DNA of 64,000 nt. Origin: Synechococcus sp. HK01-R. GTDB lineage: Bacteria; Cyanobacteriota; Cyanobacteriia; PCC-6307; Cyanobiaceae. The translations under genes were made by a program, and so were the position numbers. A model generated the notes under the pieces. The model did no database searches. It was given only the letters and a program-made list of their open reading frames with translations, and was not told the DNA's origin. The stretch's first letter is position 1. Each line of letters starts with the position of its first letter. The stretch is taken from positions 496,001-560,000 of the forward strand of contig NZ_CP059059.1 in the NCBI RefSeq assembly GCF_014217855.1, read 5' to 3'. This document shows positions 13,150 through 14,489 of the stretch, one piece after another.

Positions 13150-13833
13150 ATGCCGCGAACCTACCCCGGAAGCCTGGTGGCCGGACTGCTGCTCAGCCTG
13201 AGTGGATTGCCGCTGCTGGCGGCGGGGCTCTTCGACAGCCAGCCCCTCAATCAGGAGCGCTTTGCCGTACTGGCGCAGGCAGTGGGACGCAACAGCTGGA
13301 AACTGCTGGTGCTGGAACAGATCCAAAAACGCCCTCTCTGCTGGGAAGAACGCCGCGACGGTCTGGTGAACCCATCCCTGAATGACTTCGATTTCTCGGG
13401 GATCTGCAGCCGCTACCTCGACAGCAACGGCTACTCCCTGAGGGCCGGTGGCGAAGACATGGACAAACGCTTCCGGCTGCGGATTGAAGACGATCGCAAT
13501 GGCTTGGTGCTGTTGGCCATCGACCCGGATCGGGGGGTGCCGATTCCAGTGGCACGCGCCAGCCGCTACCGCCGCGATCGCAATGCCTTTGTGAAGCTGA
13601 ACCTTGAACCTGGCTGGGCTCTAGAGCGACGGGCTTACCAGGGGCGCACCCTCAGCCACGTGTATTTCGCCAATCCCTCTCCCACGAACCGACTTCTGGC
13701 CCTGTCAGGGGAGAGCGACACAACCGGTGGCTTCCGCAGACTGGGCCAACCTTCGGCGCCAGAGGCGCCGAGAATCAGCAGCCTGGCCGGACGTGGCCCG
13801 GTTCGCCTGGAGGTGATTCCTTACAGGCCTTGA
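13150..13833 (+). CDS. Exported DUF3747 family protein
   Basis: 227 residues. ATG 13150 is preceded by CAGGAG at a good distance and begins a signal peptide ([26 protein letters not shown], cleavage near residue 26). An in-frame start at 13087 is less likely. The mature domain has the DUF3747 pattern: [60 protein letters not shown] with two conserved Cys, then [21 protein letters not shown]. The family is cyanobacterial, exported and of unknown function. A low-complexity tail follows (residues about 190-227). Confidence 0.88.
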
Positions 13834-13913
13834 GCGGATCCAATCGCCGCAGCTTGCGATCAGACAGTTGAAAGAGCGCACGATCACAGCAGCGCAGCAT
13901 CCTCCTCCGAATT

Positions 13914-13919
13914 AATTTT
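13914..13919 (+). promoter_or_regulatory. Candidate -10 element of the intergenic small RNA
   Basis: TAATTT within an AT-rich patch (GAATTAATTTTG, 13909-13920) that stands out in GC-rich surroundings, 6 bases before the proposed transcript start near 13925. No convincing -35 box is visible. Confidence 0.35.
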
Positions 13920-13924
13920 GCAAA

Positions 13925-14021
13925 GTGTGAGGAGTGCTGAGCGCCTCTTCAGGGTCGAAACAAGGACAGACTCCTGCAATGCGTTCCACTCAAAGCTCCG
14001 CCTACGGCGGGGCTTTTTTTT
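13925..14021 (+). ncRNA. Candidate Yfr2-like small RNA
   Basis: An intergenic segment ending in a strong terminator. Seen directly: an AGGAGT (13930-13935) / ACTCCT (13970-13975) stem enclosing a loop that contains CGAAACAAGGACA; a single-stranded spacer; then a terminator hairpin (13992-14014) with a run of eight T. The 5' end GTGTGAGGAGT (13925-13935) is an exact complement of ACUCCUCACAC, the unpaired core of the cyanobacterial sRNA Yfr1 as I remember it. Yfr2-family RNAs of picocyanobacteria have a similar length (roughly 65-100 nt), a 5' stem-loop with GGAAACA-type loop motifs and a 3' terminator; the loop here matches that motif only in part. It could instead be the 3' UTR of the DUF3747 gene. 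Confidence 0.5.
13992..14021 (+). terminator. Strong rho-independent terminator, plus strand
   Basis: Eleven-bp stem AAAGCTCCGCC / GGCGGGGCTTT (one G-U pair), loop TAC, then a T-run ending at 14021. It ends either the candidate small RNA or the DUF3747 transcript. Confidence 0.88.
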
Positions 14022-14039
14022 GCCCTTGACTCAGTCATC

Positions 14040-14065
14040 AAAAAGCCGGCCCCAAGGGACCGGCT
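14040..14065 (-). terminator. Terminator of the rplJ-rplL operon
   Basis: Read on the minus strand: AGCCGGTCCC TT GGGGCCGGCT stem-loop (one G-U pair) followed by TTTT, starting about 30 bases after the rplL stop codon. It sits back to back with the plus-strand terminator at 13992-14021. Confidence 0.85.
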
Positions 14066-14096
14066 GTGAAAACGACAGGGGGAAGACCCCTTGCGA

Positions 14097-14489
14097 TCAC
14101 TTGAGGGTGACCTTGCCGCCGGCCTCTTCGATGGCCTTCTTGAGGGCTTCAGCTTCATCCTTGGACACACCTTCTTTGATGGCCTTAGGAGCAGCTTCAA
14201 CCATGGCCTTCGCGTCGCCCAGGCCAAGGCCAGTGGCTTCACGGACAGCCTTGAGGACCTTGATCTTGGCGGAGGCATCGAAACCTTCCAGCACAACATC
14301 AAATTCGGTCTTCTCTTCGGCGGCTTCACCACCGCCACCGGCGGCGGCGCCAGGAGCGGCCATCACCACACCAGCAGATGCGGCAGCGGACACACCGAAG
14401 GCCTCTTCGATCTGCTTGACGAGCTCGGAAGCTTCAAGCAGCGAGAGGGTTTTCAGCGATTCGAGAATTTCGTCGGTTTTTGCAGACAT
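14097..14489 (-). CDS. rplL: 50S ribosomal protein L7/L12
   Basis: Forms the flexible ribosomal stalk that recruits and activates translational GTPases. 130 residues: N-terminal dimerisation domain ([29 protein letters not shown]), an Ala/Gly-rich hinge ([16 protein letters not shown]) and the C-terminal domain ([29 protein letters not shown]...KVTLK). Last gene of the minus-strand r-protein block, 47 bases after rplJ. Confidence 0.98.

Follow-up and report, generated by a model that had tools for sequence, protein, structure and literature searches.

The question raised by this locus was what is encoded in the 263-base gap (13834-14096) between the stop of a DUF3747 gene and the stop of rplL, in the 64,000-nucleotide stretch of Synechococcus sp. 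HK01-R DNA analysed here (the window). The earlier note, which had given the gap the same length, had placed in it a Yfr2-type small RNA able to pair with the small RNA Yfr1. The gap encodes a new member of the known Yfr2 family, the mode of action of which has already been published. The features of the locus are collected in Table 1.

Table 1. Features of the Yfr2 locus and its neighbours (window positions).
Feature	Position	Strand	Basis
Yfr2-family sRNA, ~95-97 nt	13925..14021	+	RF01701, model R1; predicted 5' end 13925-13927
GUGUGAGGAGU, exact complement of the Yfr1 core ACUCCUCACAC	13925..13935	+	sequence match; own Yfr1
Central hairpin (stem CAGGGUC/GACUCCUG, base 13972 bulged, 12-nt loop GAAACAAGGACA)	13950..13976	+	predicted fold, covariation
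Intrinsic terminator, 11-pair stem and T run	13992..14021	+	predicted stem, covariation
Putative -10 element TAATTT	13913..13918	+	T13913, A13914 and T13918 each conserved at >=90% across 27 aligned upstream rows
Promoter box GACAGTTGAAAGAGCG, conserved, its CAGTT ~62 bases before GTGAGG	13863..13878	+	conservation in relatives
DUF3747 gene, upstream neighbour	13150..13833	+	Pfam PF12565, 182.3 bits
rplL (ribosomal protein L7/L12), convergent neighbour	14097..14489	-	Pfam PF00542, PF16320

A covariance-model search of the gap and its homologues, which had been suggested as a check, gave a match to the Rfam family RF01701 (Cyano-1) at 13921-13990 on the plus strand, scoring 49.4 bits (cut-off 41), with an E-value of 1.5e-05 when all 4227 Rfam families are searched against the window. 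Together with the matches of R1, a model trained on the window and its relatives, this bore out the assignment to the Yfr2 type, and the 5' motif and the hairpin were kept in the relatives. R1, which has the window sequence among its training set, scored 97 bits over 13921-14021. No Rfam family other than RF01701 was matched above its cut-off across the 64 kb window, and nine matches under cut-off near the gap were weak and were read as chance. Cyano-1 is the printed name for the Yfr2 motif, by which the Yfr2 family is characterised (PMC8400943). RF01701 was matched at E <= 0.001 in 113 of 121 family genomes and, among 14 control genomes, in the one cyanobacterium alone. As a cross-check in genome G071, the Yfr1 match (1220973-1221029) had the same coordinates as published for Prochlorococcus MIT9313, and an RF01701 match (1667332-1667396) fell on the published MIT9313 yfr2 (complement 1667304..1667390, PMC1242208).

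The RNA shared with Yfr2/RF01701 the 5' GUGUGAGGAGU motif, a bulged central hairpin with a 12-nt loop of the GAAACAAGGA type, an intrinsic terminator and the occurrence of several copies per genome. The conserved 5' sequence of Yfr2/Cyano-1, GUGUGAGGAG, was found exactly at 13925-13934. A 12-nt central loop on a bulge-interrupted stem is a feature of Yfr2 (PMC2662882) and was present here in both the predicted fold and the pair counts, and the predicted length of 95-97 nt, closed by the terminator, compares with 89-95 nt in MED4 (PMC1242208). This copy differed from the Rfam RF01701 consensus in its stem, AGGGUC/GACUCCU instead of GGGGUG/CACUCCC, and at the end of its loop, GGACA instead of GGAAA. 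The RF01701 match, the fold z-score and the conservation in relatives, taken in combination, led to the rejection of a chance origin.

The RNA folded with a z-score of -2.84, and 2 of 200 shuffled sequences folded equally well. The loop GAAACAAGGACA occupied 13957-13968. The 11-bp terminator with eight T that had been described was found, with its stem at 13992-14016 and its T run at 14014-14021, three of the eight T lying inside the stem. In the fold ensembles of RNAs starting at 13921, 13923, and 13925, positions 13925-13931 were unpaired at 0.96-1.0, while positions 13932-13935 were paired with 13988-13991 at a probability of 0.99-1.0. With 13932-13935 paired, the unpaired 5' nucleotides numbered 11, 7, and 5 for starts at 13921, 13925, and 13927, respectively; the first 8-13 nt of Yfr2 RNAs are described as single-stranded (PMC2662882).

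The earlier note had drawn a different 5' stem, closed by AGGAGT/ACTCCT, and AGGAGU and ACUCCU are indeed perfect complementary hexamers in this copy, which could make them a self-switch in competition with Yfr1 binding. However, pairing of 13930-13935 with 13970-13975 never reached a probability of 0.05 at any of the three start sites, and the ACUCC strand was base-paired to GGGU within the loop hairpin, a helix with compensatory changes in relatives. The AGGAGT/ACTCCT stem was rejected in view of the fold probabilities and the covariation of the competing hairpin, and a self-switch of this kind is given hardly any weight. Of the proposed two-RNA switch, the predicted pairing with Yfr1 stood and the self-fold fell away.

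Covariation was evaluated in an alignment of 27 rows (the window and 26 named loci), with the structure taken from the fold of the window. In this alignment 89.5% of the cells were paired and changes on both sides occurred at 11 of 26 pairs. Among 500 shuffled controls, the percentage paired was reached by none, the covariation score by none, and the count of doubly changed pairs by 4, in a test that kin sequences may pass even without a structure; slid controls scored far lower. The central hairpin had 96.8% of its cells paired, with compensatory changes in four of its eight pairs and the other four invariant, and the terminator helix had 96.3%, with four of eight counted pairs compensatory. 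Both elements are well supported by covariation in the relatives. Support was lower for the outer helix, which includes 13932-13936 (78.3% of cells paired), and the pair at columns 13-73 formed in 8 of the 27 rows. Of the hairpin and the 11-mer, a lack of which in related genomes had been named in advance as evidence against the RNA, the hairpin was kept in the alignment, and the 11-mer was kept exactly in 13 of the 27 rows and in large part in the others.

The 11-mer GTGTGAGGAGT at 13925-13935 had no second match in the window, where 0.09 matches were expected. Across the genome it was found three times, the same count as that of its reversed control (3), and one of the three copies lies inside a coding frame that we take to be rpsA. 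On these counts the 11-mer alone is weak evidence, and its significance by itself was rejected. As a separate observation, a match to the cyano-S1 leader (RF03151, 53.4 bits) was recorded at L119:519-601 (+), upstream of a frame that is presumably rpsA.

The genome's own Yfr1 was found as a sole RF01116 match of 66 bits at L120:1509-1565 (-), with an exact ACTCCTCACAC core, and comparison with this Yfr1 confirmed that the 11-mer is an exact complement of the core, as had been stated. The gap containing this Yfr1 sits between two frames that we take to be guaB and trxA, and it is between these two genes that yfr1 is placed in print (PMC6778093). Co-folding of the two RNAs, another suggested check, gave a predicted interaction energy of -14.9 kcal/mol, which was reached by none of 200 dinucleotide-shuffled Yfr1 sequences (mean -6.2 kcal/mol) and by none of 200 in which the 19-nt single-stranded stretch of Yfr1 alone was shuffled (mean -5.2). 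When the Yfr2 side was shuffled, the value was reached by 1 of 200 for the first 30 bases (mean -5.2) and by 2 of 200 for the first 11 bases alone (mean -8.6). With Yfr1, the genome's other two Yfr2 copies gave -14.7 (0 and 0 of 200 controls) and -12.4 (2 and 1 of 200). In the RNA by itself, the lower part of the motif, 13932-13935, is predicted to lie in a helix, which counts against free pairing.

Pairing with Yfr1 had been offered in the earlier note as an inference; it is supported by these predictions, but it is not novel. It was proposed in 2008 (PMC2518516) and shown in 2019-2020 in other cyanobacteria (PMC6778093, PMC6974561). Expression of a reporter repressed by Yfr1 in E. coli was restored by Yfr2, binding and relief being reported for the MED4 RNAs (PMC6778093), and a gel shift was reported for Yfr1 and Yfr2 of Nostoc (PMC6974561). 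Both RNAs have been called almost universal in cyanobacteria (PMC6778093). The locus resembles the sponge pairs of MED4 and Nostoc PCC 7120 in the combination of a complementary 5' motif with a Yfr1 core, this genome having one Yfr1 match. The MED4 pairing contains a bulged C and a mismatch (PMC2518516), whereas the 11 bases here are an exact complement in a pairing that is predicted only.

The reading favoured here, to which a probability of about 0.85 is assigned, is that the gap holds a stand-alone gene for a Yfr2-family sRNA of ~95 nt whose 5' bases pair with the Yfr1 core, titrate Yfr1 and relieve its target mRNAs, and whose loop is a second contact site. The unpaired GUGUGAG, together with GAGU after the short stem opens, would pair with the Yfr1 core ACUCCUCACAC. 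The Yfr2 copy would thereby titrate Yfr1, and the repression of Yfr1 target mRNAs would be relieved, while the conserved GAAACnAGG loop would form the second, separate contact site. The sequence, family, structure, conservation, rplL linkage and predicted pairing were established in this analysis, and expression and sponge action would be expected by analogy with the publications on Prochlorococcus MED4 and Nostoc.

The pairing stretch was conserved in the relatives. Columns 7-12 and 14 were invariant in the 27 rows, and all 27 sequences could form at least 9 of the 11 pairs with the Yfr1 core: the exact 11-mer was present in 13 rows, a single A-to-G change that keeps a wobble pair in 4, and 9 or 10 pairs were kept in 10. 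The commonest change within the core was A to G at 13933 (5 of 27), by which a wobble with Yfr1 is kept. The rows were chosen by a pattern holding most of GTGAGG, so that the conservation of GTGAGG is partly built in; a model made from the 27 rows, run against the same 80 loci, recovered the same 26 and no extra locus on that strand. The best 30 of the 150 listed R1 matches, all of them linked to rplL, are less affected by the choice of pattern, but R1 was trained on those rows. Among these 30 the exact 11-mer was found in 14 and the wobble form in 11, and the first two bases varied in 5, one of which also had the wobble. The Yfr1 core was exact in the best 30 of 96 RF01116 matches (95 genomes).

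With strict filters, RF01116 found no Yfr1 in 26 of the 121 family genomes, some of which are incomplete assemblies. Twenty-four of these 26 carried Yfr2, and at least 11 carried the rplL-linked copy. Yfr1 may therefore not be the sole reason for the conservation, and Yfr2 might work mainly through its GAAACnAGG loop, on mRNAs or a protein, with Yfr1 pairing as a secondary function. This persistence of Yfr2 speaks for such a role, as does the conservation of the loop and stem, which was as strong as that of the 5' motif. It is nevertheless held to be unlikely, if still to be reckoned with: columns 7-12 of the 5' motif were invariant, the commonest core change retains its wobble with Yfr1, and binding of Yfr1 has been reported in two published systems (PMC6778093, PMC6974561). 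Pairing with Yfr1 remains the preferred main function. In genomes where RF01116 finds no Yfr1, Yfr10-type RNAs may act as a stand-in, by analogy with SS120, for which a Yfr10-type RNA serving for Yfr1 has been argued (PMC6778093). A test of whether the Yfr2 5' motif has decayed in genomes that lost Yfr1 proved uninformative: all 10 tested of the 26 genomes kept ACTCCTCACAC at near the control rate (17 matches versus 13 for the reversed control), and many of these matches are attributable to chance on that comparison. One match in each of G008, G063, and G091 was the complement of Yfr2 itself.

The 5' coordinate published for MIT9313 yfr2 is the G of GTGAGG, the homologous base of which is 13927 here (PMC1242208); with this 5' end, 9 of the 11 complementary bases lie inside the RNA. 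The AT-rich promoter-like patch noted before was present, but a simple sigma-70 scan found no promoter upstream of the sRNA. The spacing of the -10-like element is compatible with a start at 13925 or 13927, and transcription would probably start at 13925-13927 from a promoter with the CAGTT box. CAGTT was located 60-63 bases upstream of GTGAGG at 23 of 27 distinct loci, versus 0 of 27 in the interval -160..-95. Further controls were run on 30 rows, in which L042, L044, and L090 are counted twice and CAGTT was found in 25 of 30; they gave one occurrence in -225..-160, and in the same interval three of the reverse complement and two of the reversed letters. The box GACAGTTGAAAGAGCG was kept in three genus-mates and in G071. 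In MED4, the GntR regulator PMM1637 binds yfr2 promoters at the CGRE1 motif (PMC6778093), and one match to the GntR domain PF00392 was found in this genome, in an open frame of 451 aa. By analogy, a regulator of the GntR type may bind at the CAGTT box. The box was also observed upstream of many other Yfr2 copies, in 17 of 29 upstream regions taken from the best Cyano-1 loci (L009-L038), whereas two control intervals held it in 0 and 6 of 29.

Upstream of the sRNA, on the same strand, is the DUF3747 gene, and a DUF3747 homologue adjoins the sRNA at 18 of 26 named rplL loci, an arrangement in which the sRNA could be a 3' UTR fragment or read-through of the DUF3747 mRNA rather than a separate gene. 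At the other 8 of the 26 loci, however, the sRNA was present with no DUF3747 homologue in the examined flank (at L048, a flank of 1209 bases only), which argues against a 3' UTR origin. The conserved CAGTT box and the TA...T element precede the sRNA, and elsewhere Yfr2 genes have had their transcription starts mapped, with Yfr2a starting from a site of its own behind another gene (PMC2662882). An origin from the DUF3747 mRNA is accordingly judged very unlikely, and a free-standing gene is preferred.

The neighbour on the other side, which had been named as rplL, was borne out by its two Pfam matches. An rplL match was found in 107 of the 121 family genomes (the window's own included), and in at least 77 of the 107 a Yfr2 copy was encoded on the strand opposite rplL and at most 800 bases downstream of it, a lower bound given by the 150 R1 matches listed. 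The distance was within 300 bases in at least 75 of these linked genomes, and 30 of the 107 genomes had no linked copy among the R1 matches listed. In G071, presumably MIT9313, the rplL-linked copy was placed at 2204927-2205028. Yfr2 loci have been described as not fixed (PMC1242208, PMC6778093), whereas one copy here keeps its place in convergence with rplL in most of the family genomes with an rplL match. The convergent sRNA was present at 26 of 80 named rplL loci, all of them among 52 records of Synechococcus, Cyanobium, Prochlorococcus and relatives grouped by record title, a group in which L054 (Microcystis elabens) and L085 (Cyanobacteria bacterium) were placed partly because they carry the sRNA. 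The 26 records of this group without a linked sRNA were all titled Prochlorococcus, and an rplL-linked sRNA was found at none of the 28 remaining named loci (Nostoc and others).

No mention of the linkage between Yfr2 and rplL was found in the papers searched. The link could be explained by plain inheritance. The rplL linkage, the promoter box and the two-core neighbours described below are modest comparative additions to a known system. With its fixed neighbour, this copy can be told apart from the Yfr2 copies that move and followed as one orthologue through Synechococcus, Cyanobium and part of Prochlorococcus, which suits it to deletion and target studies.

A second Yfr2 copy of the genome was found at C1:1397062-1397127 (-). 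Adjoining it, a Yfr10-like element with two Yfr1-type cores was observed at L121:1430-1513 (+), which corresponds to C1:1396929-1397012 (+). One core lies mostly in a predicted hairpin loop and the other is unpaired, followed by a terminator; the fold z-score was just -1.54, and 16 of 200 shuffles folded equally well. This element may be the WH8102 Yfr10 that is mentioned in PMC6778093. In the window, no ACTCCTCACAC belonging to another element was found elsewhere. A model of six two-core sequences found 14 copies (L223-L236), the six training sequences among them, in 4 of the 121 genomes, all of the window's genus. Thirteen of the 14 had a listed Yfr2 copy no more than 1 kb away, 19 of 22 Yfr2 matches being listed for this comparison. 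Eleven of these 13 were divergent from Yfr2, nine of them with a gap of 72-79 bases, and in two cases two elements shared one Yfr2. The genome's own two-core element is one of the two convergent cases. RNAs with Yfr1-type cores are likewise encoded beside Yfr2 copies in MED4, where Yfr10, Yfr12, and Yfr18 lie beside Yfr2, Yfr4, and Yfr5 (PMC2518516); the neighbours in this genus differ from these in being two-core and mostly divergent from Yfr2.

A tentative scenario, which we put at clearly less than even odds, is that a founder Yfr2 copy, its RNA starting with the Yfr1 complement, was vertically inherited at rplL, and that extra copies spread in the genus in company with two-core Yfr1/Yfr10-like RNAs, forming divergent pairs whose gap is often a near-constant 72-79 bases. 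Sponge and anti-sponge transcribed from one promoter region would then tune free Yfr1. The divergent pairs of the genus make this idea directly testable. A third Yfr2-like copy was observed at C1:2206841-2206907 (+) (L003), with 37.1 bits, under the Rfam cut-off, and 56.6 bits for R1.
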